Shown: in pieces, positions 6,435 to 34,672 of the stretch
Layout of the letters: the number at the start of each line of letters is the position of its first letter
How positions within the stretch are numbered: position 1 is the first letter of the stretch
Source: an uncultured Jannaschia sp.
GTDB lineage: Bacteria; Pseudomonadota; Alphaproteobacteria; Rhodobacterales; Rhodobacteraceae
DNA: 38,362 bases
Assembly: GCF_947494025.1 (NCBI RefSeq)
Contig: NZ_CANLTQ010000025.1
Span: 1-38,362, forward strand
Direction of reading: 5' to 3'
Notes under the pieces: model-generated
The model's database searches: none
What the model was told of the DNA's origin: nothing
What the model saw: only the letters and a program-made list of their open reading frames with translations
Translations under genes and position numbers: made by a program

Positions 6435-6435
6435 C

Positions 6436-7062
6436 ATGACCGACCTCGCCACCCTGACCCGCCGAGCGGCCCTGCTCGGGATCGCTGCCAGCCTGGGCGG
6501 GTGCAGTGCGTTGTCCTCTCTCAACGCCGCAGCGACCCCCTTGGCGACCTTCGACCTGCTCCCTGTGCCCGGCCCCGCATCCGGACCGCAATCCGGACGC
6601 ACGATCCTCGTTGCGCGCCCCGGCACGCCCGCCGCCATCACCACCGACCGCATCGTCATCAAGCCGAACCCGCTAAGCATCGCCTACCTTCCCGAAGGAA
6701 GGTGGCCCGAGGAGCTCCCGTCGGTGCTCCAGTCGCTCCTCGTGCGCTCGATCTCGGGCACTGGACGTGTCGCCTATGTCGGGCCCGTCGAGGGCGGGCC
6801 GGTCCCCGACATCGTGCTCCTGTCGCGGGTCGACGCGTTCCAGGCGGAGACGGCGGCCGCGGGCGTCGAGGTGGTGGTAGATCTGGAGATGACGCTGCTC
6901 AACGACCGCGACCAGCGAGTGATTGCCTCGCGCGGCTTCGGGCGACGCGTACGCGCGTCGGGCGACGTGGCGGCCGCCGTCGTCCCCGCCTTTCAAGCGG
7001 CGCTCGACGCCGTCCTGCCTGAGATCGCCGACTGGGTGGTGGCCGTCACAGTCCGCGGTTGA
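6436..7062 (+). CDS. ABC-type transport auxiliary lipoprotein (PqiC/ABC_trans_aux-like)
   Basis: 208 residues. The N-terminus has twin arginines (TRRAALLG) and a lipobox SLGGC with Cys23 as the probable lipidation site. The body (TFDLLPVPGP, ILVARPGTPAAITTDRIVIK, ARGFGRR-like RVIASRGFGRRV, AFQAALDAVLPEIADWVV) matches the auxiliary lipoproteins that follow mlaEFD-type genes and link the inner-membrane complex to the outer membrane. It starts 1 nt after mlaD and closes the operon. No mlaC or mlaA homologue is present in the window. Confidence 0.85.
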   Translation: MTDLATLTRRAALLGIAASLGGCSALSSLNAAATPLATFDLLPVPGPASGPQSGRTILVARPGTPAAITTDRIVIKPNPLSIAYLPEGRWPEELPSVLQSLLVRSISGTGRVAYVGPVEGGPVPDIVLLSRVDAFQAETAAAGVEVVVDLEMTLLNDRDQRVIASRGFGRRVRASGDVAAAVVPAFQAALDAVLPEIADWVVAVTVRG

Positions 7063-9631: not shown

Positions 9632-10996
9632 TCAGACCCAGATGTCGGACGAACAGTCCCCGCCCGGATAACGCGTTTCATGCGCCCGCGCGGGCCCGTG
9701 CGGTTCCTCGTTGAAATCGACGATAAAATCGTTACGGATCTTCATGCCGCCGTTTTCGTTATCGCAATCCACGATCAGCATGACGCCGCCCTTTTCCTTC
9801 ATCGACGGATAGAACTGGTTGTCCCAGGTCGAGAAGAGCGATGTCGTGACATAGAGCCGTTTCCCGTCGAGCGACAGCTGGATCATTTGGGGCGCGCCAT
9901 CGACGCTCCTGCCGTTCACCTCGTGCGCCTTGCCTAACAATCCGCCGATCCAGACCTGACCGGTCATCCTGGGATTGGCCGGGTCGGAGATGTCGTACTG
10001 ACGCAGATCGCCGTGCAGCCAGTTCGAAAAGTAAAGATACCTGTCATCCATCGACACCAGGATATCGGTGATGAGGCTCGGCAAAGGGACGGGGAAACCT
10101 TCCACATCCGCGGGTGGCACATCGATGACCTTGTTGACCTCAATCTTTCCGTTGTCCTTGTGGTAGTGAAAGATGTTCGAAGCCAAGGCCGCCCCGACAA
10201 AGCCATGGGTGCTGTCTGGATCATGGTGAAAACGGGCTTCCAGTGGGATCATCCCTTCCTCGCCCAAGTCGATGGATTGTTCCACCTTGCGGTTCTCGAA
10301 ATCCCAGAAATGGATGTGCCGGCCGTATTTGCCCCGCGCCACGTCTTCGAGGTCGAACCCCGGCATGAAGGTGTTGGGCGATCCCCATTCGGTCGAGATC
10401 ATCATGTTGTGGCGGGGCTGATACCAGAAGTCGTAGTTGTACCTCATCTCGCCCAGGTCTTTTTCCCAGCGCCCGATGATGTTGAAATCCTTGTCCAGAT
10501 GAAGAAAACCGCCGGGACCGTTGCCATCGGCATCGCCCAGCATCGACACGATGATGTCCGCACCCAGGCAATGCACGGTGTGCGGGGCCGACAGGTTGGT
10601 CTTGGCCTTGATTTCCTTGCCGTCGATGGTCTTGAACAATGTCGGCTTGCGCGGATCGGTGGCGGTATCGACGATGTAGAAATTCGTGGTGCGCACGCCC
10701 GGAATGATCAGGTATTTGCGTTCCATGCTGCCATCGGTGTTACACGACGAACACGCATTCCAACCCATATGATGAAGCTCATCCCCCACGACCGGCATTT
10801 CGGTCCGGTGGATCACCTCTCCATAGCTGGGGCTGCCCTCGTCGACGTCGATGGTGGCTAGATAATCCGGTTTCTCGACTCCGGTGCCGGTATAGATGCA
10901 GATCGTGTAGACAACTTTTTCGCGTGGCGCTTTGATGGCCTCCTGCGGCGAAGCATAGCCCGGGCCTGCGCAGCACTTACCGTTGTTTTCGGTCAT
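9632..10996 (-). CDS. mtoX: SBP56 family protein, probable methanethiol oxidase
   Basis: 454 residues, full length for the selenium-binding protein 56 / MTO family, whose bacterial members oxidise methanethiol to formaldehyde, H2S and H2O2. Seen: CSSC in HMGWNACSSCNTDGS, the His-rich segments SAPHTVHCLGADI and ARFHHDPDSTHGFVG, and conserved FSNWLHGDLRQYDISDP and GGDCSSDIWV at the end. A GAGGAGG ribosome-binding site is 6 nt before the ATG. No Sec/Tat signal is evident at the start (MTENNGKCCAGPGYASPQEA), whereas characterised Hyphomicrobium MtoX is periplasmic. The usual SCO1/MauG partners are absent and a ferredoxin follows instead. Family certain; methanethiol as substrate is inferred. Confidence 0.85.
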   Translation of the reverse strand: MTENNGKCCAGPGYASPQEAIKAPREKVVYTICIYTGTGVEKPDYLATIDVDEGSPSYGEVIHRTEMPVVGDELHHMGWNACSSCNTDGSMERKYLIIPGVRTTNFYIVDTATDPRKPTLFKTIDGKEIKAKTNLSAPHTVHCLGADIIVSMLGDADGNGPGGFLHLDKDFNIIGRWEKDLGEMRYNYDFWYQPRHNMMISTEWGSPNTFMPGFDLEDVARGKYGRHIHFWDFENRKVEQSIDLGEEGMIPLEARFHHDPDSTHGFVGAALASNIFHYHKDNGKIEVNKVIDVPPADVEGFPVPLPSLITDILVSMDDRYLYFSNWLHGDLRQYDISDPANPRMTGQVWIGGLLGKAHEVNGRSVDGAPQMIQLSLDGKRLYVTTSLFSTWDNQFYPSMKEKGGVMLIVDCDNENGGMKIRNDFIVDFNEEPHGPARAHETRYPGGDCSSDIWV

Positions 10997-13047: not shown

Positions 13048-13075
13048 GGGCTGGCGTGGTGCGCCGGCCCCTTTT
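13048..13075 (+). terminator. Intrinsic terminator after the YciE-like gene
   Basis: GGGCTGGCG (13048-13056) pairs with CGCCGGCCC (13062-13070) with one G-U pair, and is followed by CTTTT. It is correctly placed 24 nt after the stop. Confidence 0.7.
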
Positions 13076-13146
13076 CGTGCGCGTCCCGAAACGGCCGGGA
13101 CCACGCGGCAGAGTAACCGCCCCACCCCGCCGTTCGGCTCTGTTGC

Positions 13147-13180
13147 GAAGCCCCCGCTCCGAGAGGAGATCGGGGGCTTC
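13147..13180 (+). repeat. Nested hairpin leader, copy H (plus strand)
   Basis: GAAGCCCCCG pairs with CGGGGGCTTC around an inner CTCC-GAGA-GGAG hairpin with a GNRA-type loop. A TTCTTCTCGTGCG tail follows, then a leader containing AAAAGGATG and the ATG of the broken gene at 13220. This is the only member of the family on the plus strand. Confidence 0.75.
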
Positions 13181-13219
13181 TTCTCGTGCGACCTCGGACC
13201 GAACGAAAAGGATGTCCCC

Positions 13220-13378
13220 ATGTCAGATCGCACCAGACACATCGTCGCCTTCTACGAGATCGGCCTCGAGTATGGCGGATCGGAGGAAGGCTGCTGATGG
13301 TACGATTGCGGCGAGCTGCGCTGCGTCCTGTGGGTCGTACCGACCGCCGATGCGGCCTACGATCTCGCCGCCCGCGCC
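13220..13378 (+). pseudogene. Broken paralogue of the 98-residue island gene at 18062-18358
   Basis: The start MSDRTRHIVAFYEIGLEYGG matches MPDRIRHVVALYEMDRTYGG of the intact gene. After GGSEEGC a TGA interrupts the frame where the intact copy has WW; then WYDCGELRCVLWVVPTADAA and YDLAARA continue in the same frame. Similarity stops at about 13378, where IS66 sequence begins on the other strand. Thus nonsense-interrupted and truncated by insertion or deletion. It keeps its hairpin leader. Confidence 0.85.
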
Positions 13379-13617
13379 ATGTCTGCCGGGAGCTTCTCGG
13401 AACTATTGCCGAACCGCACCCGGCGCAGCTCGGCGATCAAAAGCTCGAGCCGCGCAACGCGCTTGGCCATGTCGGCCCGGTCGCGCTCGGCGCGCAGGCG
13501 GGCCTCACGCTCCGCCCTGGTTGCCGCAGACTGCGCCTCGACCGCCGCCATGACGGGGCCTCGCAGCTCTGGCGGAAGCCGGTCGAGAAGCGCGGGATCG
13601 AGGGCGGGCGGCGACAT
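13357..13617 (-). pseudogene. IS66-family transposase TnpC, N-terminal fragment
   Basis: 86 residues beginning MSPPALDPALLDRLPPELRG, with the coiled-coil region ERDRADMAKRVARLELLIAE and LRRVRFGNSSEKL, the typical N-terminal end of IS66 TnpC. The zinc-finger and DDE domains are absent: the frame runs into the broken paralogue at about 13379. Lies downstream of tnpB on the same strand, the normal IS66 gene order A-B-C. Confidence 0.8.
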
Positions 13618-13682
13618 GCCCGAAGCCTACCCGACAAGCTCGTCGCGCCCAAAAGAATGCAGGCCCTGGGAGCCGGGGTGAT

Positions 13683-14036
13683 TCAACTCGCCGCAGCCGG
13701 CGCCCGCACGCGCCGCGCCATCGGCCGTCGCCAGTCCAGCCCGGAGAACAGTGCCTCGTATTGCGCCCTGCTGATCTGGATCACGCCGTCCGTCACCGCG
13801 GGCCAAGCGAACACGCCCTCGTCGAGCCGCTTGTAGACCATGACCAGGCCGCTGCCGTCCCACACCAGGATCTTCAACCTGTCTCCGCGCTTGGACCGGA
13901 AGACCACCGTCAGCCCTGAATGCGGGTCGAGCCCGAGCTCGTTCTGGACCGTCGCCGCCAATCCATCGTGCCCACGCCGGAAGTCGACGGGCTTCGTCGC
14001 GATCACGATCGGGAGCCGCTGATCCGGGACGATCAC
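13683..14036 (-). CDS. tnpB: IS66-family accessory protein TnpB
   Basis: 117 residues from a GTG at 14036 that overlaps the tnpA stop (GTGA). The sequence IATKPVDFRRGHDGLAATVQ, ELGLDPHSGLTVVFRSKRGD, RLKILVWDGSGLVMVYKRL and GVFAWP is characteristic of IS66 Orf2/TnpB, needed for transposition with unknown biochemical role. Intact in length although the element around it is not. Confidence 0.88.
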   Translation of the reverse strand: MIVPDQRLPIVIATKPVDFRRGHDGLAATVQNELGLDPHSGLTVVFRSKRGDRLKILVWDGSGLVMVYKRLDEGVFAWPAVTDGVIQISRAQYEALFSGLDWRRPMARRVRAPAAAS

Positions 14037-14095
14037 GCGGAAGGCCCGCCGATCGCGTCCCGCAGCCCTCGGACGACCTCCGCCAGACGTGGAAA
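14034..14095 (-). pseudogene. IS66 TnpA, C-terminal stub
   Basis: About 20 residues, FPRLAEVVRGLRDAIGGPSA, ending in TGA over the tnpB GTG start. This is the tail of IS66 Orf1; the HTH part is missing. Upstream sequence (14096-14154) is not IS66-like. Confidence 0.6.
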
Positions 14096-14154
14096 ACACC
14101 CGCTGAAGCGCTGGACGAGCTGCTAAACAAAGAGAAAGACGCCAGCGTTGCGAC

Positions 14155-14327
14155 AACCGGTTGAGACCGCCGTTTCCAAAGCAAGGTCCTCGATCGGACG
14201 CCACCTCGACTTTAACAACGCAACGCGGCCCCATTCATCGCTCGGCGGGCAGACACCCGATCGAGCATATCTCAACCAGCCAACGCCGATTCCGGCGGCG
14301 GCATGGCCAAGGCGGAGATCCACTTAA
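14155..14327 (+). pseudogene. IS3-family transposase OrfB, C-terminal fragment
   Basis: One frame reads GRHLDFNNATRPHSSLGGQT and PDRAYLNQPTPIPAAA, the well-known C-terminal end of IS3 OrfB (family form YNTRRPHSSLGGRTP). Catalytic residues upstream are missing. Together with the IS66 pieces it marks a scarred junction. From 14328 to 14616 no gene or element was recognised. Confidence 0.75.
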
Positions 14328-14616
14328 CGAGAGCCCGAAAGCTGTTCAGACAAACCGAACCGCTTTTGACGAAGACGAAGTTGATTGCGTTGAGGGCTGG
14401 ACGTAGTGCCCTCCTCGGAGCCACGCGAGGTAAGGCGGCAGGTAGCGATACGCCTCGGGCTCGGCCGCCAAGCGCACCGGGAAGCAAGGCTGGCTGCGCG
14501 GGACGAAGAAGAGGCCGACGCGGATGGTGCCTATGCTGACGAAGCCGACGCCGACCAGCCCGGCAAGGTCTGGACAGATGATGTGCCGTTCGACCGACGC
14601 GTGCTGCCCGTGCGCG

Positions 14617-16776
14617 TTAACCCAACGGCGTGCGTGGCCCTAGATTGTCCGGCGCGATCTCGTCGATGCTCTCCGTCTCGTCGGCCTCGTCGGCCTCGTC
14701 GGTCGCGTCTTCGTCGGACAAGTCCTCGCCGTCCACGTCCATGCCCTCGGGATCGGTCTCGTCCTCCGGGTCCGCCTCGTCCGTCGCCATCCCGCGCAGC
14801 CGGTTCTTGCCGAACGCCTCGTAGGGGTTCCGAGGCGCGCCGATCTCCATGCCCGGCGGGCACCACGTCCGGGCGGCCTCGCGCTGCTCGGGGGTGAGCG
14901 TGGCGAAGGGCGCGGCGAACAGGCGCTCGAGAAAGTCGACGATCGCCGTCTTCTTCTCGCTCGCCAACCGCGCCGCCTCCTCGGGCTGGCGCAGGTCGCG
15001 GGCGATGAGGCCGAGAAGCACGCTCTTCTTCAGCCGCCCGAAGAACGCGCCGCCGGTCGGCCGCCAGACCGCGCGCAGGTCCGGCACGAGCTGGCGGGCG
15101 ATATGCGCCATCAGAGTTTCGCCGTAGCCGTAGCCCGTGGGCTTCACCGCGTCGGCCAGCGCCACCGCGACGATGCGGGACTTCATCGCCGGATCGACCG
15201 CGCGGAACGCCTCGAACCGCTCGGGCATGGACTTTCCGTCCGCCCACCAATGCAGGTCGAGACCCTCGAACAGCTCCGCCAGCGTCGCGGCGGCCTGACC
15301 GTCCACCTCGTCGGGCTTGCCGTGGGGCCGGTCCGCCGCGCTCGCCGTCACCCCGAGACTGTAGGACACGTTGCCCGCCCGGCCGAGGAGGTCGGCCACA
15401 ATCTTGAAGAGCAACAGATCGTGCGCGAGGTCCGGGTCGCCTGCAAGCGCGCTGCCGATCACGGCGGCCTGCTCGGTCTTGAGGTCGGCCTTCAGCGAGT
15501 CCGACAGCACCAGCGCATCGCCGTCGTCCTCGCTCCCCTCGGTTCCGCCGGTGGCGCCCGTGGACGTACCGTCGCCGCCGCCGGTTGCGGCGGGCTTGCG
15601 GTCCGTGCGGTCCTCGGGCCGCACCAGACCCTCGATCGTGACGATGCGCCCCTGGTCCCAATAGGCCAGCACGCCGGCGCGGCCGAGATCGGCTTCGGCC
15701 CAGCCCGTCGTCAGGCCCTCGTACTCCTCTTCGAGCGTCGCCAGGTCGGGGCGGTCGTCGGGGTGATCGTCGTTCCCCTCGATGTCGTCCATCGCGGCAT
15801 CGCGCGCCTCGTCGATCTCGGCCAGCCGGTCGGCGATGATGCGGCAGCGCGTGGCGGCCTCGCCCGTGGGCTCGACCGCGCCGGGATAGACCCGGCCGTA
15901 CTCCTGCAGCGCCTTGTAGTCCGCCGCGCGCAGGGCCTCGGCCCACGCGAAGCCCAGCCGCGCCCGCTTGGCCTCGGCATGGGCCGCGAGCTTCTCCAGC
16001 AGCAGTGTCTCGACCAGTGTCTCGTCGGTCAGGATCGAGTCCTCTTCGATGAGATCGGCCGCGATGTCGCCGCCCGCCGCGCGATACGCCTCGGCCACGA
16101 GCCGCGCCACCGCGTCGCCCATCTTCACGCCGCGGTTCCGCAGCTTGTCGCGGATGGCCCACGCAGGGAGGAAGCTCTCGCCGCGCAGCGCCTCGAACAC
16201 GTCGCGCTGGACGGCCTGGTCGGGATGCTCGGCGAACGCCTTCATCGCGTCGAGCGTGATCTCCTTGGCCCGCGCGGCGGCGCGGATGTCGGGATGGACG
16301 CGGCCGAAGCGCAGCCGGTCGATGACGCGGCGCCGCTCGACGCCGAACATCCTGGCGATGCCCTCGGGATCGTGGCCGCCGGTCTCCATCATCCGCGCGA
16401 ACGCCTCGAACTCGTCCAGCGGGTCCATCGCCTTCTGCGTGACGTTCTCGGCCACGGTGATCGCGGTCGCCGCCGCCACGTCTTCGCCCAGCACCCGGCA
16501 GGCCACCCTGGTCCGCTGCGTCCAGCCCTTCGCGTCCTTGTCGTTCACGAGCTGGCGCAGCGCGGCGAGACGGCGGCCGCCGGCGAGAACGCCCCAGACC
16601 TTGCCGGTCTTCTGGACGATCAGCGGATTGAGCAGGCCCAGCGTGTCGATCGAGGCCGCGAGGTTGGCGATGTCGTCGGCCTCGTAGGTCTCGGGCGAGC
16701 CCGCGCGGGCGTTCAGCGCGTGCAGCGCGAGGTCCTTCAGCGCCACGTCCATCGCGGTCAGGTCGGTCGTCGTCAT
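14617..16776 (-). CDS. Large ParB N-terminal domain protein
   Basis: 719 residues. The ParB/Srx fold region has IDTLGLLNPLIVQKTGKVWG and the CTP/phosphate-contact motif AGGRRLAALRQL (residues about 65-76). ENVTQKAMDPLDEFEAFARM follows, then a KorB/ParB-like HTH with IARMFGVERRRVIDRLRFGR. The rest (about residues 230-719) is long, acidic and not recognised, with a low-complexity acidic tail (DEADPEDETDPEGMDVDGED). Twice the size of partition ParB, and no parA is adjacent; proteins like this accompany ardC and DUF3768 genes on alphaproteobacterial plasmids. More likely an accessory nucleoid or anti-defence protein than a true partition protein (inference). AGGAGAG precedes the ATG. Confidence 0.8.
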   Translation of the reverse strand: MTTTDLTAMDVALKDLALHALNARAGSPETYEADDIANLAASIDTLGLLNPLIVQKTGKVWGVLAGGRRLAALRQLVNDKDAKGWTQRTRVACRVLGEDVAAATAITVAENVTQKAMDPLDEFEAFARMMETGGHDPEGIARMFGVERRRVIDRLRFGRVHPDIRAAARAKEITLDAMKAFAEHPDQAVQRDVFEALRGESFLPAWAIRDKLRNRGVKMGDAVARLVAEAYRAAGGDIAADLIEEDSILTDETLVETLLLEKLAAHAEAKRARLGFAWAEALRAADYKALQEYGRVYPGAVEPTGEAATRCRIIADRLAEIDEARDAAMDDIEGNDDHPDDRPDLATLEEEYEGLTTGWAEADLGRAGVLAYWDQGRIVTIEGLVRPEDRTDRKPAATGGGDGTSTGATGGTEGSEDDGDALVLSDSLKADLKTEQAAVIGSALAGDPDLAHDLLLFKIVADLLGRAGNVSYSLGVTASAADRPHGKPDEVDGQAAATLAELFEGLDLHWWADGKSMPERFEAFRAVDPAMKSRIVAVALADAVKPTGYGYGETLMAHIARQLVPDLRAVWRPTGGAFFGRLKKSVLLGLIARDLRQPEEAARLASEKKTAIVDFLERLFAAPFATLTPEQREAARTWCPPGMEIGAPRNPYEAFGKNRLRGMATDEADPEDETDPEGMDVDGEDLSDEDATDEADEADETESIDEIAPDNLGPRTPLG

Positions 16777-16826
16777 GGGGTCTCTCCTGATGTGTCTTTC
16801 CCGGCCTCATGGCCGCACACGAACAA

Positions 16827-16859
16827 AAGCCCCCATTCCTCTTTCGAGGCGGGGGCTTC
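16827..16859 (-). repeat. Nested hairpin leader, copy A (before the ParB-like gene)
   Basis: On the minus strand AAGCCCCC pairs with GGGGGCTT around an inner CCTC-GAAA-GAGG hairpin with a GNRA loop. TTTTGTTCGTG follows, then the leader with AGGAGAGACCCC before the ATG at 16776. May also terminate the upstream DUF3768 gene. Confidence 0.75.
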
Positions 16860-16894
16860 GCAGTCGGGCAGACCGGCCGGAAGGGCGTGCCGTC

Positions 16895-17281
16895 CTACCA
16901 GTCGGAGGGCAGCAGGATCGTCAGCACGCGATAGGTCCGGGCCGGGTCGTCCGGGGCCTCGGAGCCGTATTTCAGGTCCGATCCGTCGTAGAAGTCCAGC
17001 TTGAACCAGACCGTCGTGCCCTCGACCTCGACCGCGCCGAAGTCGTGGAAGCCGTCCGGGTCGTTGTCGGCCGGGAAGTCCGTCACCCGCCCGATGGCGG
17101 CGAGACTGGCCTGGACGAATGGCATCCCTTTCGCATGGATCGCCTGCGTTGCGACGAGTTGACCCATCAGGACCGGATCGCCGGGCGCGTAGGGAATGGC
17201 GAGGCAGGCGTTGCGGCGGAAGGCGTCGTTCTGTTCGGCCACGCGGGCGGGCTCAGTGACGTACTCGGCGGTATCGGTCAT
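16895..17281 (-). CDS. DUF3768 family protein
   Basis: 128 residues; start at 17281 chosen for the GGAGAGAGACC ribosome-binding site directly upstream. The C-terminal half has the DUF3768 pattern: TVWFKLDFYDGSDLKYGSEA followed by DDPARTYRVLTILLPSDW. The first half contains RVAEQNDAFRRNACLAIP. No enzymatic function is known for the family; it recurs with ArdC and ParB-like genes on mobile alphaproteobacterial DNA. Intact. Confidence 0.82.
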   Translation of the reverse strand: MTDTAEYVTEPARVAEQNDAFRRNACLAIPYAPGDPVLMGQLVATQAIHAKGMPFVQASLAAIGRVTDFPADNDPDGFHDFGAVEVEGTTVWFKLDFYDGSDLKYGSEAPDDPARTYRVLTILLPSDW

Positions 17282-17316
17282 GGTCTCTCTCCTATGTCTG
17301 GGGACCACGACGAAAA

Positions 17317-17348
17317 GGCGCCGCCTCCAATCTCTCGAAGACGGCGCT
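17317..17348 (-). repeat. Nested hairpin leader, copy B (before the DUF3768 gene)
   Basis: On the minus strand GCGCCG pairs with CGGCGC around TCTTCGAGAGA. The tail CCTTTTCGTCGTGGTCCCC follows. The 16-bp block 17298-17313 is identical to 17992-18007 in copy C, and both leaders end in GGAGAGAGACC-ATG. Confidence 0.7.
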
Positions 17349-17385
17349 CTCGTCGACGTCGGGCCGGTAAGGCGGCCGGTCTGGC

Positions 17386-17688
17386 TCAACCCATGAGCCT
17401 CTCGTCGTTCCAGTCACCATCGGCATCGACGGCGCGGACCTCGACGTCGGGATGCTTTGTGTCGATCGCGCCGACGTCGATCTCCGCGTGGAGCGGCAGA
17501 TCGCACGTCGTCCCGTCCGTCCAGGTGATGAAACAGGTGTCGTACTTGACCCCAAGGCCCCTGACGTCGGCCCATGTCCGACCTTCGGGCAGGTCGATCA
17601 CGTCGGCGGCGGAGCAGCTGTAGGTCACGGCGATGCCGATGCGGCGGATCGCGGTGCCCGGGGCAGCGGGCATGGCCAGGTCGGTCAT
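17386..17688 (-). CDS. Small island protein of unknown function (100 aa)
   Basis: Start ATG at 17688 overlaps the stop of the upstream gene (ATGA), so the two are translated together. Seen: RRIGIAVTYSCSAADVIDLP, GVKYDTCFITWTDGTTCDLP and an acidic C-terminus (DVEVRAVDADGDWNDERLMG). No family recognised. Soluble, no signal peptide. Stands in the ParB/ArdC gene cluster, so a role in establishment or anti-defence is possible but unproven. Confidence 0.7.
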   Translation of the reverse strand: MTDLAMPAAPGTAIRRIGIAVTYSCSAADVIDLPEGRTWADVRGLGVKYDTCFITWTDGTTCDLPLHAEIDVGAIDTKHPDVEVRAVDADGDWNDERLMG

Positions 17689-17975
17689 GCCGTGCGCTCC
17701 TCGGAAGCGAGGACTTTGTGGAAGGGCGTGACGGCGGCCCATGCCCGGTAGCCGCGCGGCGCCCGGCCCGACATGATCGAGGTCGAGACGGCGGCGGGCA
17801 TCCGGCCTGCGTCGCGCAGGCGGCACATCATCCGGTGGACGGCGTTGCGGATGTCTCCGAGGTCGTTGGTCTCGATGGTCTCGGACGGCATGGCGCAGCC
17901 GCCGAGGGCCAGGACGACTTGGAATCCGCCATGCTCCTCTTTGGCGGCGTAGCTCTCGATCTTGATGACGGGCAT
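17685..17975 (-). CDS. Small island protein of unknown function (96 aa)
   Basis: Starts MPVIKIESYAAKEEHGGFQV after GGAGAGAGACC; contains LALGGCAMPSETIETNDLGD, IRNAVHRMMCRLRDAG and ends ASEERTA. Mixed alpha/beta composition, no signal or membrane segment, no family recognised. First gene of a two-gene unit with 17386-17688 and preceded by hairpin copy C. Confidence 0.7.
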   Translation of the reverse strand: MPVIKIESYAAKEEHGGFQVVLALGGCAMPSETIETNDLGDIRNAVHRMMCRLRDAGRMPAAVSTSIMSGRAPRGYRAWAAVTPFHKVLASEERTA

Positions 17976-18015
17976 GGTCTCTCTCCTTCTGCTGGGGACC
18001 ACGACGAACAAGGCC

Positions 18016-18040
18016 GCCTCTGCCCTTTCGGGCGGGAGGC
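18016..18040 (-). repeat. Nested hairpin leader, copy C
   Basis: Minus strand: GCCTC-CC-GCCC-GAAA-GGGC-A-GAGGC, a GNRA-capped two-step stem, followed by GGCCTTGTTCGTCGTGG and the block shared with copy B. Lies before the 96-residue gene. Confidence 0.75.
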
Positions 18041-18061
18041 TCCGGCAGGCCGGGCGGCGGC

Positions 18062-18358
18062 TTACTCGTAGCGCGGCTGGGTCTCGGGGAAGGCGCGCGG
18101 CGCGGTGTCTTCGAAAACGCAGGCCGAATACCGTCCGCCCGAGTAGATGACGGACCCGACATCGCGCTTGCCCCGTTGGAGCCGGTCCATCAGCCGATTG
18201 GCGCGGGCGGCGAGATCGTAGGCCGCATCCGCGGTCGGCACGACCCGCAGGACGCGGGCGAGCTCGCCGCAATCATACCACCAGCCGCCTTCTTCCGGGC
18301 CGCCATATGTGCGGTCCATCTCGTAGAGGGCGACGACGTGCCGGATGCGGTCTGGCAT
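18062..18358 (-). CDS. Small island protein of unknown function (98 aa), with a broken paralogue at 13220
   Basis: MPDRIRHVVALYEMDRTYGG, then a Trp/Tyr-rich GGWWYDCGELARVLRVVPTA, then DAAYDLAARANRLMDRLQRG and an SVIYSGGRYSACVFED segment. No known domain identified. A second, decayed copy on the opposite strand at 13220-13378 shows that the gene has been duplicated together with its hairpin leader. Intact, preceded by hairpin copy D. Confidence 0.72.
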   Translation of the reverse strand: MPDRIRHVVALYEMDRTYGGPEEGGWWYDCGELARVLRVVPTADAAYDLAARANRLMDRLQRGKRDVGSVIYSGGRYSACVFEDTAPRAFPETQPRYE

Positions 18359-18398
18359 GAGGGGGTATCCTTTCCGGTCAGCTCGGGCCTGAACGAGA

Positions 18399-18432
18399 CG
18401 AAGCCCCCACTCCCTCTCGGGCGGGGGCTTCG
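18399..18432 (-). repeat. Nested hairpin leader, copy D
   Basis: Minus strand: CGAAGCCCCC pairs with GGGGGCTTCG around GCCC-GAGA-GGG (GNRA loop). A TC-TCGTTC tail follows, then GGAAAGGATACCCCCTC before the ATG at 18358. Confidence 0.78.
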
Positions 18433-18449
18433 GGCCGGGGCAGGCCGGT

Positions 18450-18671
18450 CTAGTGGATCGTGACGGTCTCCGCGTAGCTATCGCCGAACACCGCCGTCCA
18501 TTCCTCGGCGGTGATGCCCGTCATCACGAACTCGCGGTCCGCGTCCGACAGATGCGGTGCCGCGTCTTGGATCAGCTCGCCCCCGTCCCATGCCGCGAGC
18601 TGCGCGGGCGTCAGGTCGATCTCGCGGGTATGTTCCACGCCGGTCAGCCTGAAGATGCGGGTGATCTTCAT
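18450..18671 (-). CDS. Small island protein of unknown function (73 aa)
   Basis: MKITRIFRLTGVEHTREIDL, TPAQLAAWDGGELIQDAAPH and LSDADREFVMTGITAEEW. The pattern 'L-T-P-A-Q-L-A-A-W' followed by 'L-S-x-x-x-R-E-F-x-x-T-G-I-T' is found in many small plasmid-borne proteins without assigned function. Acidic and soluble. AAGGA is upstream of the ATG at 18671; stop TAG at 18450. Confidence 0.72.
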   Translation of the reverse strand: MKITRIFRLTGVEHTREIDLTPAQLAAWDGGELIQDAAPHLSDADREFVMTGITAEEWTAVFGDSYAETVTIH

Positions 18672-18710
18672 GGTGTCGTCCTTTCCGTCCGGTCCAAATC
18701 CAAACGAAAG

Positions 18711-18743
18711 GAAGCCCCCTTCACCTCTCGATGCGAGAGCCTC
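18711..18743 (-). repeat. Hairpin leader, copy E (degenerate)
   Basis: Minus strand: GAGGCTCTCG-CAT-CGAGAGGTG, then GGGGGCTTCCTTTCG. The inner stem CTCTCG/CGAGAG is perfect, but the outer GCCCCC arm seen in copies A and D is lost, so only the 3' arm remains. Confidence 0.6.
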
Positions 18744-18772
18744 GCGTCTTGGTCGGGTGGTAGGTGGGGCGG

Positions 18773-18898
18773 TTACTCGGCGGGGCGCCCGCGCCGGTCG
18801 TCGCGCTCGAGTTGTGCCCGCGACCACCGGGCATAGAGTGCGCCCGCAATGCCGAGAGCCAGGCCGCCGCCTACGATGATGATCGTCTCGATGGTCAT
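18773..18898 (-). CDS. Tiny single-span membrane protein (41 aa)
   Basis: Reads MTIETIIIVGGGLALGIAGA, then LYARWSRAQLERDDRRGRPA and E. One N-terminal transmembrane helix followed by a basic cytoplasmic tail. The ATG at 18898 overlaps the stop of the preceding frame (ATGA), so it is translationally coupled to the ArdC/membrane-tail gene. No family recognised. Good codon-position GC bias and the coupling support a real gene. Confidence 0.65.
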   Translation of the reverse strand: MTIETIIIVGGGLALGIAGALYARWSRAQLERDDRRGRPAE

Positions 18899-20049
18899 TT
18901 GTCGATCTCCACTTGGCTGACAATGTAATGGGCAAGGCCGTGCAAGGCCAGCGCGCCGACAAGATAGATCAGGCTGTTCAGGTCCAGGCTGACGGTGGCA
19001 TCGACGATCGGGCGGACGACACCGAGCGCAATGAACGCGAAGCCGATGGCGTTGATGCTGGACCCGAGCAGCTTGACGCGCTCGTTGTGGCCACCGACCG
19101 GATCACGCTGCCTCATGGATCGCCCCTTCGCCTTCGTGCCGGCTTCCGATGCAGCGACGAGAAAGTCTACTGCCCGTTGCGCGTGGGCAGCCGCGGTGAA
19201 CAGGAACCGGGTGTCGGTCTTCAGTACCTTGATCCACGACGAGATGTAGGCCGCGTGATTGTCGATGTGATCGGCATAGAACCCCATGCGCTGACCCATC
19301 AGCGCCTCACTTACGCACACACACAGCTCCTCCTTCGAATAAGCCTCGTTGCCGAAGCTGGAGACGCCGAAGCTGCGATCGAGCCGCTCCTTTGTTTTCG
19401 TCCAGTGGCCAAGCTCATGAAATAGCGTTGAATAATACGATCCGGCGCTCTCGAAGCGTGCCAGCGGCGGCATGTGGATGCGGTCGAGCGAGGGGATGAA
19501 ACAGGCTCGGTCGCCGCCCACGACGACATCCGCGTCGATCGCGTCGAAAAACGCCTGCGCCTCGGGGATCGGCGCGGGACCGTCGCTCGGATCGCCCTCG
19601 GGTTCGGGATGGTACGACGCGTCGAGCCCGTCGATCTGGCTGACGTGGAACACGCGGTAGGACTTCAGGAAGCGGTAGCTGCCGCCACCGTCGCGCCCCT
19701 CGTCGCCATCACCGGCGTCACCACCCGCATCGCTCCCTTCCGCGCCGCGTTTTCTGGCGGTGCCATAGTACACGACAATGGAAGAGCGGCTCCCCTTTTT
19801 GATACTCGCGTCCAGGGCCTTCGCCTGAGCAAACGTCATCCAGTAGGGCGAGCTGTAGCCCATCATCGTCGCGCGCAGGCCCAGCAGGAAGGCGTTGATA
19901 CCCTGGTACCGCTCGCCGTTGTGGCGCAGCGGCACGCCGCCGCCCGCGATCTTCCAGGGCTGCCGCCAGGGCATCGTGCCCTTCTCCAAGAGGGCGATGA
20001 TCTCGTTCGTAATCTCCGTGGCGGGATCGAGTTTCTGCGTCGTGGCCAT
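18895..20049 (-). CDS. ardC: ArdC-type antirestriction zincin with in-frame C-terminal membrane tail
   Basis: 384 residues. Start at 20049 (MATTQKLDPATEITNEIIAL). Residues about 8-130 are the N-terminal ssDNA-binding domain (MPWRQPWKIAGG; YQGINAFLLGLRA; YWMTFAQAKALDASIKKG). The zinc motif HELGH is at residues 211-215, and a candidate third ligand is the Glu in VSEALMG. ArdC proteins protect incoming plasmid ssDNA from restriction enzymes. The normal end would be near residue 311; instead the frame continues through MRQRDPVGGHNERVKLLGSS into two membrane helices ending EIDK. An internal ATG at 19116 with AAGGGG 6 nt upstream could start the 73-residue membrane part separately. A linker rich in Gly/Asp (residues about 101-123) interrupts the N-terminal domain. 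Confidence 0.85.
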   Translation of the reverse strand: MATTQKLDPATEITNEIIALLEKGTMPWRQPWKIAGGGVPLRHNGERYQGINAFLLGLRATMMGYSSPYWMTFAQAKALDASIKKGSRSSIVVYYGTARKRGAEGSDAGGDAGDGDEGRDGGGSYRFLKSYRVFHVSQIDGLDASYHPEPEGDPSDGPAPIPEAQAFFDAIDADVVVGGDRACFIPSLDRIHMPPLARFESAGSYYSTLFHELGHWTKTKERLDRSFGVSSFGNEAYSKEELCVCVSEALMGQRMGFYADHIDNHAAYISSWIKVLKTDTRFLFTAAAHAQRAVDFLVAASEAGTKAKGRSMRQRDPVGGHNERVKLLGSSINAIGFAFIALGVVRPIVDATVSLDLNSLIYLVGALALHGLAHYIVSQVEIDK

Positions 20050-20091
20050 CGGTCCGGGTCCTTTCTCCGGGGTGAAAATCCACCACGAAAA

Positions 20092-20125
20092 AAGGCCCCC
20101 TCGCCCTCTCGGGACCGGGAGCCTT
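20092..20125 (-). repeat. Nested hairpin leader, copy F (before ardC)
   Basis: Minus strand: AAGGCTCCC pairs with GGGGGCCTT around GGTCCC-GAGA-GGGCGA (GNRA loop), followed by TTTTTTCGTGGTGG. The six-T run makes this the most terminator-like member. The leader then carries GGAGAAAGGACC before the ATG at 20049. Confidence 0.75.
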
Positions 20126-20129
20126 CGGA

Positions 20130-20447
20130 TCAGCCGGACGGGGGGAGATTGCCGCCCACGCCCGCCGCGCGCAGCCGTGTCACGCGGTTTGACAGCGCCA
20201 CGATGATCGGCGTCTGCGGAGCCGCGCCTCGCGCGCCCCGGTGGGGCCGCTCGAACCCGGTCGCGTAATGGTGCGGCGGCCCTTTCAGGACTGCGAGGAC
20301 GTGATCGAGGAGTTGCATGTCCATCTCGACGTCGATCTCGTCCACCGGGAAGACCCGCATGTGCCGGGCCTCCGCAGCATATCTCGCCGCAGAAATACGG
20401 CGACGCCGGATCTCGAAGGCCATCGCCAGCCAGTCCGCGATCGTCAT
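20130..20447 (-). CDS. Small island protein of unknown function (105 aa)
   Basis: Start ATG at 20447 overlaps the stop of the upstream gene. MTIADWLAMAFEIRRRRISA, ARYAAEARHMRVFPVDEIDV, then MDMQLLDHVLAVLKGPPHHY. The C-terminal 35 residues are Arg/Gly-rich. Mostly helical; no family identified. Second gene of a two-gene unit. Confidence 0.65.
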   Translation of the reverse strand: MTIADWLAMAFEIRRRRISAARYAAEARHMRVFPVDEIDVEMDMQLLDHVLAVLKGPPHHYATGFERPHRGARGAAPQTPIIVALSNRVTRLRAAGVGGNLPPSG

Positions 20448-20692
20448 GGCAGGGCGGCCGCGCAGGTTTCGGCGGCCTCGATCTGCCAACGGCCGAGATC
20501 GTCGTCGAAACGGATCGTCGCGTCGGCGCCGTGCTGCGCGACGAAGACATGATCCGCCGCCATGCGACGGGACAGGTGCAGGTCGGCGGCGCGATGGCCG
20601 CTCGGTCGTTTGCACCACGCGCCGGCCGTGGCGCGACAATCGCCGCAGGGCACGGCGAGGACAGGGTGCTTGTAGGCTGTGAAGTCGGGCAT
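20444..20692 (-). CDS. Small putative zinc-binding protein (82 aa)
   Basis: MPDFTAYKHPVLAVPCGDCR, ATAGAWCKRPSGHRAADLHL and SRRMAADHVF. The C-x2-C ... C-x-R-P-S-G-H ... H arrangement resembles small zinc-ribbon proteins found in phages and plasmids (pattern 'CP-CGA-x-G-x-C-x-PSGH'). Start at 20692 is preferred over an upstream in-frame ATG because GGAGG lies 5 nt before it. Overlaps the next gene by ATGA. Confidence 0.7.
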   Translation of the reverse strand: MPDFTAYKHPVLAVPCGDCRATAGAWCKRPSGHRAADLHLSRRMAADHVFVAQHGADATIRFDDDLGRWQIEAAETCAAALP

Positions 20693-20741
20693 GAGGGCCT
20701 CCATTCTGCTTGGCGCCGCAGCGCCGGATGCGGTATGGGTG

Positions 20742-20765
20742 CCGCAGCCCCGCGAGGGGCTGCGG
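20742..20765 (-). terminator. Strong hairpin between small island genes
   Basis: CCGCAGCCCC and GGGGCTGCGG are perfectly complementary around a 4-nt loop. It lies between the 39-codon gene and the zinc-ribbon gene. No T-run follows on the minus strand, so the terminator role is uncertain; it differs in sequence from the nested hairpin family. Confidence 0.5.
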
Positions 20766-20777
20766 CGGGGGCTGTCG

Positions 20778-20897
20778 TCAGACGGTCCCGTGCTGGAGGA
20801 GGAAGGCGCGGGCGATCTTGCTGGACAGGCCGCCCTTCCTCAGCAGCGCCCAAGCCTCGGGCCGGCGCGCTGCGATGAAGTCATCGAAGGTCTTCAG
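20778..20897 (-). CDS. 39-residue protein, probable CTG start
   Basis: LKTFDDFIAARRPEAWALLR followed by KGGLSSKIARAFLLQHGTV. Looks like a small helical protein. GGAGG (20906-20910, minus strand) is 8 nt before the CTG at 20897; the only other in-frame candidate, GTG at 20906, overlaps the Shine-Dalgarno sequence itself. No family recognised. Moderate evidence: amphipathic helices, spacing to the ribosome-binding site, and position in a tightly packed minus-strand cluster. Confidence 0.5.
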   Translation of the reverse strand: MKTFDDFIAARRPEAWALLRKGGLSSKIARAFLLQHGTV

Positions 20898-21084
20898 TGT
20901 TCTCACCTCCTTTCCGGTTCGTGGTGGGGTCCCGTCGGGGCGTCTTGATGCGCCCTTGAGCCTGCTCGACAGGCTCGGCCTCGGCCGGGGCTGGGACGCC
21001 GCCCGGCCGGTCCGGTGTGTCGCGGTCGGGATCGTGGATCGGCCTCGCCGTGGCGCACCGTCCCCGTCTCTTCCTCCCGGACAC
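20881..21084 (-). CDS. Proline/charge-rich small protein, uncertain
   Basis: 67 codons from GTG at 21084: SGRKRRGRCATARPIHDPDR, then DTPDRPGGVPAPAEAEPVEQ and AQGRIKTPRRDPTTNRKGG. Disordered composition. It lies right after hairpin copy G, where a gene is expected, but the ATG of the neighbouring frame (MSVREEETG) is closer to the leader and no clear ribosome-binding site distinguishes them. Its end overlaps the start of the 39-codon gene by 17 nt. Confidence 0.35.
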   Translation of the reverse strand: MSGRKRRGRCATARPIHDPDRDTPDRPGGVPAPAEAEPVEQAQGRIKTPRRDPTTNRKGGENTEDLR

Positions 21085-21095
21085 TCATCCCGAAA

Positions 21096-21127
21096 GAAGC
21101 CCTCTTTCCCTCTCTCGCGGGACGGGC
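21096..21127 (-). repeat. Hairpin leader, copy G (first of the minus-strand cluster)
   Basis: Minus strand: GCCCGTCCC-GCGAGA-GAGGGAAAGAGGGC, then TTCTTTCG. Same overall design and tail as the other copies with a larger apical loop. It marks the upstream end of the minus-strand island. Confidence 0.6.
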
Positions 21128-24637: not shown

Positions 24638-25297
24638 ATGAGTAGTCAGAAAGATAACCGGCAGGCCAATCTGACGCGCGGCATCCGCGTCGAGATCGCC
24701 AGCCTCGTCTACAACATCATCGAGGTCGTCGTATCCGTCACCGTGGGACTTCTGACCGGCAGCGCGGCACTGGTAAGCTGGGGTCTCGACAGCACGGTCG
24801 AAGCCACCTCAGCCGCGACGCTGATCTGGCGCTTGAAGGGGGAGAAGGACGGTGCCGGCAAGCGCACGGTCCTGCACCGCAAGAAGGTCGCGCTCTACGT
24901 GGTTGCCTGTGCCTTCTGGATCGTCGTCGCGGCGATCCTCTACGAGGCGGTCTCCGCCTTCATTTCGCAGAAGGCGCCGGGCTTCAACTGGTGGGGTATC
25001 GCGATTCTGGGTGCTTCGCTCGTGGTCAACCCGTTCCTCGCCTGGGGCAAGTATCGCTATGGCAAACGGCTCGATGCGCCCGCCCTGAAGTACGATGCCA
25101 AGGACACCATGATCTGCCAGTATCAGACAATCGTGGTGTTGGCCGGGATCGGTCTGACGCAATGGATGGGCTGGTGGTGGGCCGACCCGGTCGCGGCGCT
25201 TCTGATCGTGCCCTACGTTGCGTGGGAAGCGTTTGAGGCCACCAAGGATGCGCGGTCGGTCGAGCCGGAGGAGGCCGACGCTACTGCCGACGCCTGA
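24638..25297 (+). CDS. Cation transporter (CDF-like inner-membrane protein), intact copy
   Basis: 219 residues, about five membrane helices. GIRVEIASLVYNIIEVVVSV, GSAALVSWGLDSTVEATSAA, LHRKKVALYVVACAFWIVVA, GFNWWGIAILGASLVVNPFL, KYDAKDTMICQYQTIVVLAG and MGWWWADPVAALLIVPYVAW. The A-x-S-W-G-L-D-S and A-K-D-T / W-A-D-P-x-A-A motifs match the cation efflux fold (zinc ligands in D-x3-D pairs). A paralogue interrupted by a stop lies at 35780-36436. Its 3' end overlaps the convergent P450 gene by 17 nt. Confidence 0.8.
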   Translation: MSSQKDNRQANLTRGIRVEIASLVYNIIEVVVSVTVGLLTGSAALVSWGLDSTVEATSAATLIWRLKGEKDGAGKRTVLHRKKVALYVVACAFWIVVAAILYEAVSAFISQKAPGFNWWGIAILGASLVVNPFLAWGKYRYGKRLDAPALKYDAKDTMICQYQTIVVLAGIGLTQWMGWWWADPVAALLIVPYVAWEAFEATKDARSVEPEEADATADA

Positions 25298-26528
25298 CGT
25301 TGCGCATGATGAACCGGGATTTAGGCATGGGCGGCAGTTCTTCGGTTTCCAGATCCAGATCCTGATCTGGCACTTCGTAGTCGATGGCGTTCACGAAGAA
25401 ACTGCAAAACGCCTTCATCTGGCTGATCGCGATCCACTCGCCCGGACAACGGTGGTTCCTGTGGTGATCACCACCGCCCTGCGGAATGAAGTCGTAGGGG
25501 GTGACCTCCCGATCGTGAAACCGCTCGGGCCGGAACTCTTGCGGCGCGTCCCACGAGCGAGCGTCGGTATTTGTGCCGTAGAGGTCGAGCAGAACCCTGT
25601 ACCCTTTGGAAAAGCGATATCCGCGCCACTCGAAATCACTCTTCACCCGTGCCGCGACCGCGGGAAAGAACGGATACAGACGGCGGACCTCTTGCACGAA
25701 AGGTTCGAGCTGTCCCTCGTCGTCCTTCAGCTTTTGCCGCCACTCGGGATGCCGATGCAGGGCATGCGCCGCCTGGGCGATGAACGCAGAGACGGCGACG
25801 ATCGGGCGTACTACGTTCAGAAGCTCCACGGCGGCAACCTTGGAGGTCAGCAGCTCCCCATTCAGATCGCGCCACGTCGCGACGACATGGGCGGCGCTTT
25901 CCTGTCCTGTCTGAAGGCTTCCGTCGCGCAGCCGTTCAATAATCCCGGCTGTCCAACGCTCTGCGCGATGCCGCGCCAGACGCGCACCCCAGTGCTTCCA
26001 GCCGACCGCCCCGGCGTCTTGGAAGAGCGCCGTCATCTGCGCCGTCCGCGTCTCGACCTCCGCTTCGGGAAGCGGCACGCCCGACCAGGCGCAGGCAGCT
26101 CTGGTGAGGATTTCGCGCACTTCGTCGTAGAGAACGACCTTCTCCGCCGCTTGCCAGTCCCGTGCGTAGCGGTCCAACAGGTCCCGCGTCGTGTTTTCGA
26201 GAGCTTCGATCCGCTCCGACGCCATGAGTGACATAAACATCCGCTTCCGATGACGGTGGGCCTCGCCATCGAGCCCCTGGATGCCCTTTTCGCCGAGCAG
26301 GGTTCTCTGGATACGCTTCGGCATCGAGCCTGCGCGCACGAGCCCATCCTCGGAATAGAAGACCTCCGCAGCTGCGGCACCAGTCATGCAGATCGTCTTT
26401 TGAAAGAGGATGCGGGTCTCGAACAGGTCGCCCTCAAGATCGCGGCATGTGTCCGGAATGAACTCATATGGGTTGCGCAGCAGGGCAAGCGTGCTGTCGA
26501 TGCCCTTTGCGGATGGAATGCTGGACAT
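25281..26528 (-). CDS. Cytochrome P450 of the CYP152 (fatty-acid peroxygenase) family
   Basis: 415 residues. CYP152 enzymes use H2O2 to hydroxylate or decarboxylate fatty acids. Seen: heme-ligand region FIPQGGGDHHRNHRCPGEW with Cys361; Arg241-Pro242 in NVVRPIVAV, the substrate carboxylate-binding pair that replaces the acid-alcohol pair of other P450s; and Gln84 in GIQGLDGEAHRHRK, the position that is Gln in the hydroxylase BSbeta and His in the decarboxylase OleT. Hydroxylation is therefore the more likely reaction. ExxR is in EVRRLYP. Starts 3 nt after the lspA stop, in an operon with a metal CDF exporter. Intact. Confidence 0.9.
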   Translation of the reverse strand: MSSIPSAKGIDSTLALLRNPYEFIPDTCRDLEGDLFETRILFQKTICMTGAAAAEVFYSEDGLVRAGSMPKRIQRTLLGEKGIQGLDGEAHRHRKRMFMSLMASERIEALENTTRDLLDRYARDWQAAEKVVLYDEVREILTRAACAWSGVPLPEAEVETRTAQMTALFQDAGAVGWKHWGARLARHRAERWTAGIIERLRDGSLQTGQESAAHVVATWRDLNGELLTSKVAAVELLNVVRPIVAVSAFIAQAAHALHRHPEWRQKLKDDEGQLEPFVQEVRRLYPFFPAVAARVKSDFEWRGYRFSKGYRVLLDLYGTNTDARSWDAPQEFRPERFHDREVTPYDFIPQGGGDHHRNHRCPGEWIAISQMKAFCSFFVNAIDYEVPDQDLDLETEELPPMPKSRFIMRNVRRRQ

Positions 26529-34020: not shown

Positions 34021-34046
34021 GGTCGGGGCTCACGGAGGAAACGGGA

Positions 34047-34436
34047 ATGACGCTCGATGTATCATTGCCCGCTGATGCGTCGGGGGCAACCGCTTCGCCC
34101 GGGACGGATGCCCTGCACCTGCGCGCAAAGCTCTTCCGCGGCCTGGGCGATCCGAACCGCCTCGCGATCCTCGCCGAACTCGATCCCGATCCCCGGACGG
34201 TCGGCGAGATCGTCTCCGCCACGGGCCTGACGCAGCCGAACGCATCGAACCACCTGCGCTGCCTGTCGGAATGTGGCCTCGTCCTGCGCGAGGCGAAGGG
34301 GCGGCACGCGCTCTACCGCCTCGCCGATCCGCGCGTGCCCGGCCTGCTTCGCGATGCGGATGCGCTTCTGGCGGCGGTCGCGACCGGGGTGCCGGGCTGT
34401 TCGCGCTATGCGGAGGGCGGTCCCGAGAAGCGATGA
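34047..34436 (+). CDS. ArsR/SmtB-family repressor, CmtR-like cysteine pattern, copy 2
   Basis: 129 residues. AKLFRGLGDPNRLAILAELD, EIVSATGLTQPNASNHLRCL, SECGLVLREAKGRHALYRLA. C-x3-C in LRCLSECGLV and a C-terminal Cys (VPGCSRYAEGG) repeat the pattern of copy 1, so Cd/Pb-type sensing is likely for both. ATG at 34047; AGGAAACGGGA lies just upstream. The 3' end overlaps a MerR stub on the other strand. Confidence 0.85.
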   Translation: MTLDVSLPADASGATASPGTDALHLRAKLFRGLGDPNRLAILAELDPDPRTVGEIVSATGLTQPNASNHLRCLSECGLVLREAKGRHALYRLADPRVPGLLRDADALLAAVATGVPGCSRYAEGGPEKR

Positions 34437-34584: not shown

Positions 34585-34596
34585 CGCGATCGCCCC

Positions 34597-34627: not shown

Positions 34628-34672
34628 TTCCTGGCGACGAGACGAACTGACCTCGCCACAGGGACGACCGCC

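Follow-up and report, generated by a model that had tools for sequence, protein, structure and literature searches.

Contig C25 from the genome of an uncultured Jannaschia sp. (NZ_CANLTQ010000025.1; 215 contigs totaling 4.39 Mb) was analyzed over its full 38,362 nucleotides, hereafter the window. It harbors an island of minus-strand genes, including those for a ParB-like and an ArdC-type antirestriction protein, in which similar short hairpin leaders stand before genes of different kinds. A first-pass annotation made from the window alone had described eight such leaders as nested, mostly GNRA-capped hairpins. Our analyses revealed that the repeat family is real, and that it is larger and built differently from that account. 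Each leader carries a GC-rich first hairpin (hp1). In many copies, the tail that follows it could also base-pair with a stretch entering the Shine–Dalgarno sequence (SD) or the start codon, forming a predicted second hairpin (hp2) that had been overlooked. From these sequence features we propose, with a probability of just under one half (about 0.48), that the leader serves as a double lock against read-through and that this lock recurs ahead of many genes in the leading-region (entry/establishment) operon of a plasmid.

In the window, leaders A to F lie on the minus strand, as do the genes behind them, and the bit scores given here for hp1 are those of covariance model R1, described below. 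Leader A (16777..16861; hp1 16826-16859, 60.9 bits) precedes the gene for the 719-residue ParB-like protein (14617..16776), which matches HTH_ParB, with ParB_N under its cut-off. Its hp1 is followed by the tail TTTTGTTCGTG, the SD AGGAGAG and the ATG at 16774-16776, and a second stem, CGGCC/GGCCG at ∼16802-16815, lies away from the SD. Leader B (17282..17352; hp1 17318-17347, 47.5 bits) precedes a DUF3768 gene (16895..17281), and its predicted hp2 (∼17279-17309) pairs GUGGUC with GACCAU across the start codon. A predicted hp2 also crosses the start codon (∼17973-18003) in leader C (17976..18044; hp1 18016-18040, 51.3 bits), which stands before an open reading frame (ORF) of 96 residues (17685..17975). 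Leader D (18359..18433; hp1 18399-18432, 61.2 bits), with a weak hp2, precedes a 98-residue ORF (18062..18358). Leader E (18672..18745; hp1 18711-18743, 55.4 bits) precedes a 73-residue ORF (18450..18671), and its predicted hp2 (∼18683-18709, UUUCGUUUGG/CCGGACGGAA) reaches into the SD. Leader F (20050..20127; hp1 20091-20126, 57.7 bits) precedes the gene for the 384-residue ArdC-type protein (18895..20049; ArdcN plus MPTase-PolyVal); here the T-tract pairs with GGAGAAAGG in a predicted alternative, long hp2 (∼20060-20091). Leader H, on the plus strand (13145..13219; hp1 13147-13180, 59.1 bits), lies before a broken copy of the 98-residue ORF. The small minus-strand ORFs of the island are mostly without a Pfam match. 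One of them, of 100 residues (17386..17688, minus strand), has a start that overlaps the stop of the preceding ORF, with no leader between; the window has three overlapping gene pairs that are without the element. The 16-bp block that leaders B and C had been said to share (17298-17313 and 17992-18007) is indeed identical.

Copies A to F and H fold where they had been placed, with energies of −15.6 to −27.8 kcal/mol. By inspection, all seven have a C-GARA-G tip, which the minimum-energy fold of D opens to a 5-nt loop. Among 122 distinct homologous leaders a strict GNRA tetraloop is found in just 35, and it was rejected as a defining feature. Also rejected was the claimed eighth member, G (21096..21127, minus strand), which folds weakly (−12.5 kcal/mol) and gave no R1 match in the window (E ≤ 5) or the genome (E ≤ 10). 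Hairpin scans of the window and of contig C20, which holds a second, paralogous island of the same genome, recovered the known copies and added further ones on C20. R1 itself was built from an alignment (A1) of 14 hairpins of these two islands. Over the 4.39-Mb genome it gave 22 matches at E ≤ 10, of which the best 14 were the training copies, with 40 to 63 bits; this search scored only 150 of its 2671 first-look candidates, and weak members could therefore be missed. The next-best match, at C30:21507 (33.7 bits), is a perfect palindromic terminator, and the remainder scored 23.4 bits or lower, three of them 22 to 23 bits. Because the 14 best matches are all island copies, the nested design is not the general terminator style of this genome. 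The 23.4-bit match lies on contig C15, near a 61-bp match and a weak DUF3768 similarity. Rfam gave one match in the window (E ≤ 5) and four in the sequences L109, L054, L006 and L114 (E ≤ 1), all under their gathering scores; one of these four, a partial CC2171 match, overlaps the leader at L109:4456.

R1 alone (E ≤ 0.0055) also detected the element outside this genome, in homologous Rhodobacterales islands. It is present in a further Jannaschia contig (L040), a Jannaschia M317-type plasmid (L042) and L041, and as a single copy before ParB in the Roseobacter-type contigs L039, L044-L046, L055 and L057, the ParB proteins of which are 45 to 46% identical where aligned. A refined model, R2, was made from 38 sequences. 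Over 149 genomes of the family (E ≤ 1e-5), R2 gave 13 matches in 11 genomes besides the own one, two of which (G020 and G028) had contributed training copies, and all 13 lie between DUF3768 and ParB. Among 289 genomes of the class it added one further genome of the same family, again with its match in the DUF3768–ParB gap (L188). Matches that would have widened the distribution to other families (L189 and L190) were discarded; they are without an island gene by tblastn and look like ordinary terminators.

A larger set of loci was assembled by a ParB alignment search, from which the best 80 of 267 loci were taken. R2 gave 138 matches at E ≤ 0.1 in 77 of these loci, out of 168 listed at E ≤ 1, and all 138 lie on the ParB strand. 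This strand result is limited to E ≤ 0.1, because minus-strand matches appear from E = 0.26, and it is partly expected, because most genes in these loci share one direction. Three of the matches lie on L114, with scores equal to those of trained copies in L042. The end of an upstream ORF was found before 134 of the 138 matches, at a median of 33.5 nt before hp1. By a lenient rule (at least 38 codons, a loose SD, 40 to 175 nt downstream) a start codon follows all 138, at a median of 84 nt after the start of hp1, and the distance from hairpin start to ATG is 63 to 127 nt in the leaders. By blastp, the ORFs behind the matches form 13 clusters: ParB (77), helicase (23), DUF3768 (12), a 132-residue family (9), the 98-residue family (5), ArdC (5) and seven singletons. 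Among the loci, a ParB gene with its leader (30.1 bits) lies on a contig (L174) labeled as a "Candidatus Scalindua" metagenome-assembled genome, perhaps a misbinned Rhodobacterales plasmid.

The first-pass annotation had named a lack of covariation in homologous loci as grounds for refuting its reading. We examined this in an alignment (A4) of 36 distinct rows fitted to the model, compared with 500 shuffles. The paired cells of hp1 amounted to 88.2%, compared to 78.6% in the shuffles, and the cells changed on both sides of a pair numbered 47, compared to 14.2 ± 4.8; the covariation score was 0.376, compared to 0.212, and structures slid along the alignment reached at most 0.187. In none of these three comparisons did any of the 500 shuffles reach the native value. 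Thus, hp1 covaries, and the family withstood this attempt at refutation. Its stem has a mean energy of −23.1 kcal/mol over the 122 distinct leaders, compared to −9.5 kcal/mol for letter-shuffled stems, and at least five T in 10 nt are found in 81% of these leaders, compared to 1.6% of coding 10-mers. Judged by its sequence, hp1 is therefore shaped like an intrinsic terminator, a GC-rich stem directly before a T-tract. The TTCGT tail had been listed as part of the shared design. A survey of 20 stretches of the genome (396,708 bases; four hold weak R1 matches, three of them picked for that) found TCGT within 12 nt of the stem in 10 of 89 candidates with a hairpin and T-tract, clean single-stem terminators included, and 7 of the 10 lie outside the three stretches so chosen. 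The TTCGT or TTTTCG-type tail is thus the host's usual terminator tail and not a special motif.

These findings support, in form, the explanation of the first-pass annotation that the hairpins are terminators kept between cassettes: the predicted stem is strong, a T-tract follows and the tail is of the host type. In its plainest version, the copies would be ordinary intrinsic terminators of separately transcribed genes, alike only through cassette duplication, and the leaders would have no further role. The host-type tail, the position of hp1 a median of 33.5 nt past the end of an ORF, and the joint copying of leader and gene visible at copy H are in its favor. It does not account for the tendency of the leader to stay with its downstream gene despite a changed upstream ORF, nor for the second hairpin and the promoter scans described below, and we regard it as rather unlikely.

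In several gene families the predicted hp2 pairs the tail, UUUUCGUG..., with ...CACGAAAGGA into the SD, or pairs it with the AUG. In helicase leaders of Roseobacter-type loci the arms are GUCCUUUGGA/UCCAAAGGAC and GUCCUGUGA/UCACAAAGGAC (bulged), and in helicase leaders of other loci they are UUUGGGA/UCCCGAA or CCGUGGGGA/UCCCGAACGG (bulged). DUF3768 leaders have GUGGUC/GACCAU(G), and leaders of the 98-residue gene have CGUUCGG/CUGAACG against GUGUGA/UCACAC. When 3′ arms were exchanged within one gene family in 2000 swaps, no swap was as good as the native arms of the helicase leaders (n = 20; native −14.14, swapped −10.94 ± 0.65), and only 5 and 36 were as good in the 132-residue (n = 9) and DUF3768 (n = 12) families, respectively. 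Over 57 non-ParB leaders, the native duplex reached −12.3, compared to −8.2 with the 5′ arm shuffled, −10.4 with the partner swapped within the family and −9.4 with the partner swapped between families. Predicted accessibility in the 122 leaders was lower than with shuffled spacers both for the SD (0.40 versus 0.46, p = 0.0014) and for the AUG (0.40 versus 0.48, p = 0.0055). By family the result was mixed: native leaders were less accessible than shuffled ones at the SD of helicase (0.19/0.41) and 132-residue (0.26/0.34) leaders and at the AUG of ParB leaders (0.32/0.47). The arm-swap tests thus support the predicted hp2 for three gene families, and not for ParB or ArdC leaders. Since hp1 covaries and hp2 is supported in three families, the suggestion of a shared post-transcriptional RNA element, also made in the first-pass annotation, gains part of the support that it would need.

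The fuller, paralogous copy of the island on C20, overlooked in the first pass, places these genes in a plasmid context. Downstream of the C20 island, in the same direction, are matches to a "strawberry notch" helicase, DUF736, DUF2493, a relaxase and VirD4, and virB matches lie on the opposite strand. The helicase that follows ParB on C20 had no match after ParB in the window. The order island, DUF736, DUF2493, relaxase, VirD4, all in one direction, recurs in pTHAF197b_c, a Roseovarius AK1035 plasmid, pDSHI03, pP73B and C20, with other genes interposed in some of these elements; in the first three, replication genes precede the island. This shared order means that the island genes point toward the relaxase, in five of the five elements where a relaxase was seen, and that a conserved noncoding stretch precedes the relaxase. 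The island stretches of Jannaschia M317 and Sagittula p4 showed no relaxase and stand outside this count. The orientation fits that expected of a leading region whose transferred strand is the template, the direction of transfer being the presumed one, and the leading-region idea of the first-pass annotation is consistent with it. The noncoding stretch before the relaxase operon is a candidate origin of transfer (L057:26860-27412, L055:24851-25447, L185:33517-34077 on the minus strand, and L186:29806-30367); its mean column identity over the four plasmids is 90%, and it includes an AT-rich stretch, CGTAAGTATATAATTGACAG...TATATTATCGTAAGG. Parts of the island region have counterparts in 279 PLSDB records; no record matches more than 80% of the region, and 162 carry a conjugative typing.

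Promoter scans bear on how the genes could be transcribed. A scan of 9,301 bases of the window found no sigma-70-type pair at any copy; its single sigma-70-like site (0.7 expected) falls within the 41-codon ORF that precedes leader E. Of the 116 spacers that separate hp1 from the SD, 2.6% contained −10-like hexamers with at least four of six matching positions, compared to 28% in shuffles, and those with at least five of six in none, compared to 4.4%; the control consisted of plain letter shuffles, with related sequences not corrected for. Sigma-70 promoters were not found within the leaders, and the data argue against both separate sigma-70 promoters and Frpo-type elements. If the genes were transcribed separately between ordinary terminators, they would thus be so without a visible sigma-70 start, and the better fit of native than of swapped hp2 arms in three families also speaks against such a scheme. 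The first-pass annotation had also raised single-stranded-DNA promoters like Frpo, which would fold on the transferred strand and start early transcription on entry. The leading-region-like geometry of the five elements, in which the transferred strand would be the template if transfer proceeds as in F, suits this proposal, and transcripts starting past the tail would be without the hp2 5′ arm. However, published Frpo elements fold their −35 and −10 boxes into the stem (PMC11541004), and the stem here is short and GC-rich. With no sigma-70 pair at the copies and −10-like hexamers rarer than in shuffles, the proposal has no motif support and is very improbable.

In the double lock that we favor, hp1 would stop transcripts arriving from upstream. 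hp2 would form only in transcripts that contain the tail and would hinder ribosome binding, such that leaked transcripts would be poorly translated. Through the stop at hp1 and the block at hp2, the genes would be kept low in an established cell. Expression would follow when transcription gets past the terminators by processive antitermination, or begins beyond the tail, and the most plausible occasion is the period right after the plasmid has entered a new cell; at other times the leaders may keep these genes quiet. The simplest function would be that each entry gene is protected from read-through, at one or two levels.

A candidate for the opener of this lock is a conserved 113-nt RNA at the operon head. 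The corresponding block (L057:4153-4265, L055:4634-4746, L039:16046-16158 on the minus strand, and L179:5568-5680) immediately precedes the opening gene of the Roseobacter-type operon, with an upstream boundary that is abrupt by eye. It is predicted to fold into a branched structure, the closing helix of which covers the SD. In 20 loci 84 of its 113 columns are invariant, a figure inflated by the choice of all 20 through an exact 18-base match inside the block, and 59 loci, some of them duplicates, match it at E ≤ 1e-8, once each. A DNA search of the genome of the window gave no match to the block under E = 0.25. The ∼113-nt RNA could modify RNA polymerase to pass successive terminators, with the second hairpins silencing stray transcripts, so that only transcripts started at the operon head would be productive, as just after conjugative entry; we consider this processive antitermination scheme quite improbable.

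The same arrangement could instead be a device for RNA processing or stability, in which a long transcript is cut between the hairpins, hp1 guards 3′ ends and hp2 guards 5′ ends, and the ratio of the products is thereby set. Intercistronic hairpins set such a product ratio in the puf operon of Rhodobacter. Hairpins in successive gaps with no sigma-70 promoter between them, and the lack of the element where genes overlap in the window (three pairs), would be expected of such a device. On the other hand, the T-tract is conserved though unneeded for this role, and a 3′ arm of hp2 that enters the SD or AUG suits translation control better. We therefore judge this explanation unlikely.

Several results weigh against the double lock. 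Of the seven window copies, a simple scan for terminators picks out B and H alone, and it finds 5 sites, compared to 3.6 expected by chance. Two of the covariation measures for hp1 in A4 were not significant: pairs with a double change numbered 7, compared to 5.5 in shuffles (85 of 500 as good), and further pair types 17, compared to 16.6 (270 of 500). At least 15 of the 138 R2 matches lie on contigs that had contributed R2 training copies (L109 = L040, L115 = L041), and the swap and shuffle tests carry no correction for relatedness. For hp2, support was weak in the 98-residue family (n = 5; 136 of 2000 swaps as good as native) and missing in the ArdC leaders (n = 5; 606 of 2000). In 59 ParB leaders the native pairing was weaker than the swapped one (1967 of 2000), which contradicts hp2 as a universal SD lock, a version that we rejected. 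Moreover, the SD was more open than in shuffled controls in DUF3768 (0.55/0.48) and 98-residue (0.47/0.41) leaders, as was the AUG in ArdC (0.69/0.47), 132-residue (0.58/0.49) and helicase (0.50/0.47) leaders.

Copy H had been taken as a sign that gene and leader move together like a cassette. Such movement is plausible from the sequences, because the homology of H to its paralogue begins within one base of the hairpin and because a downstream gene keeps its leader behind differing upstream ORFs. The helicase leader, for example, follows ParB in 13 loci and other ORFs in 10, some of these upstream ORFs probably being spurious. Hairpin identity was 0.577 for pairs with the same downstream and different upstream clusters, 0.551 for the same upstream and different downstream clusters and 0.511 for neither, a weakly informative comparison. 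The gene behind leader H (13220-13379) is a truncated copy of the 98-residue ORF, and a gene for IS66 TnpB lies nearby (13683-14234). An ordinary terminator-like hairpin with the tail CCTTTTCGTG (13048-13070) follows an ORF ending at 13024, ∼75 nt before hairpin H. On L109, three ORFs of the DUF3768 cluster, from crude ORF calls, have one leader each (4456, 6921 and 7407), which suggests cassette duplication.

By analogy, the closest counterpart of the leader is EGeRS1 of pLS20. In pLS20-family plasmids of Bacillus, repeated structured sequences stand just before the ribosome-binding sites (RBSs) of presumed establishment operons, including ardC; no constitutive promoter was found in them, and the copy that was assayed keeps transcription from a promoter upstream from reading through (PMC8708921). 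The Rhodobacterales leader is likewise a repeated conserved region with inverted repeats before the RBS, and its 13 downstream clusters include ArdC, the ParB-like protein, DUF3768 and helicase; it is also negative in sigma-70 scans, and a block to read-through is predicted from its sequence. EGeRS1 measures 420 to 750 bp in pLS20, where each operon has a single one and the non-template strand is the one transferred (PMC8708921). Unlike that element of several hundred base pairs, the Rhodobacterales leader has 63 to 127 nt, often recurs gene by gene, and pairs a terminator-shaped hairpin with a predicted tail–SD/AUG hairpin.

Leading-region anti-defense genes also stand behind hairpin elements, Frpo/ssi, in F-like plasmids (PMC11541004). 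The Rhodobacterales genes resemble them in this respect, but no −35/−10 pair is present at the copies, boxes folded inside hp1 not being scored separately. Frpo is also much longer than the Rhodobacterales leader. Many intrinsic-type terminators within one long plasmid operon are a likeness to conAn of pLS20, where the many intrinsic terminators of the conjugation operon are passed by an antitermination system (PMC8955417); that system is known and sits at the start of the conjugation operon, whereas the operon here is another one. In the IncU plasmid RA3, a long operon contains a few terminators along with several promoters, all internal (PMC7414963).

Outside plasmid operons, related solutions exist for single genes and in phages, with differences of setting. 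In the transposase genes of IS200 and IS10, a terminator hairpin and an RBS-hiding hairpin act on outside transcripts; these are single transposase genes, unlike the array before unrelated genes here. The start-associated sequences of cluster K mycobacteriophages are one leader motif repeated before unrelated genes, and they belong to phages of actinobacteria. In ISPpu9, the RBS is hidden in the 5′-untranslated region and opened by a small RNA (PMC8450116).

Timed switch-on of anti-restriction and entry genes in conjugative plasmids is known for few systems. These comprise the single-strand promoters of F-type plasmids and repressor relief in p576, with the EGeRS1 switch unexplained (PMC8708921). 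The present leaders form a compact repeated family in many loci, on plasmids of marine Rhodobacterales, with no gathering-level Rfam match in five sequences tested, and our literature searches, whose coverage largely leaves out subscription papers, returned no title describing this element. The leader can also mark uncharacterized genes, as short ORFs without a Pfam match lie behind the same leader as ArdC.

The 41-residue ORF at 18773-18898 of the window encodes a small hydrophobic protein, its start overlapping the ArdC stop, and leaders in L106-L109 are preceded by short ORFs that resemble it. The genome (G000) has two more relaxase-like matches, at C29:9519-9842 and C57:3147-3488 (the latter under its cut-off), and may therefore hold more than one mobile element. 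The flanks of the window (2822-7062, 9632-10996, 25281-26528 and 33169-35605) carry Mla-type transport genes and genes for the selenium-binding protein SBP56, a cytochrome P450 and two cation-efflux proteins.

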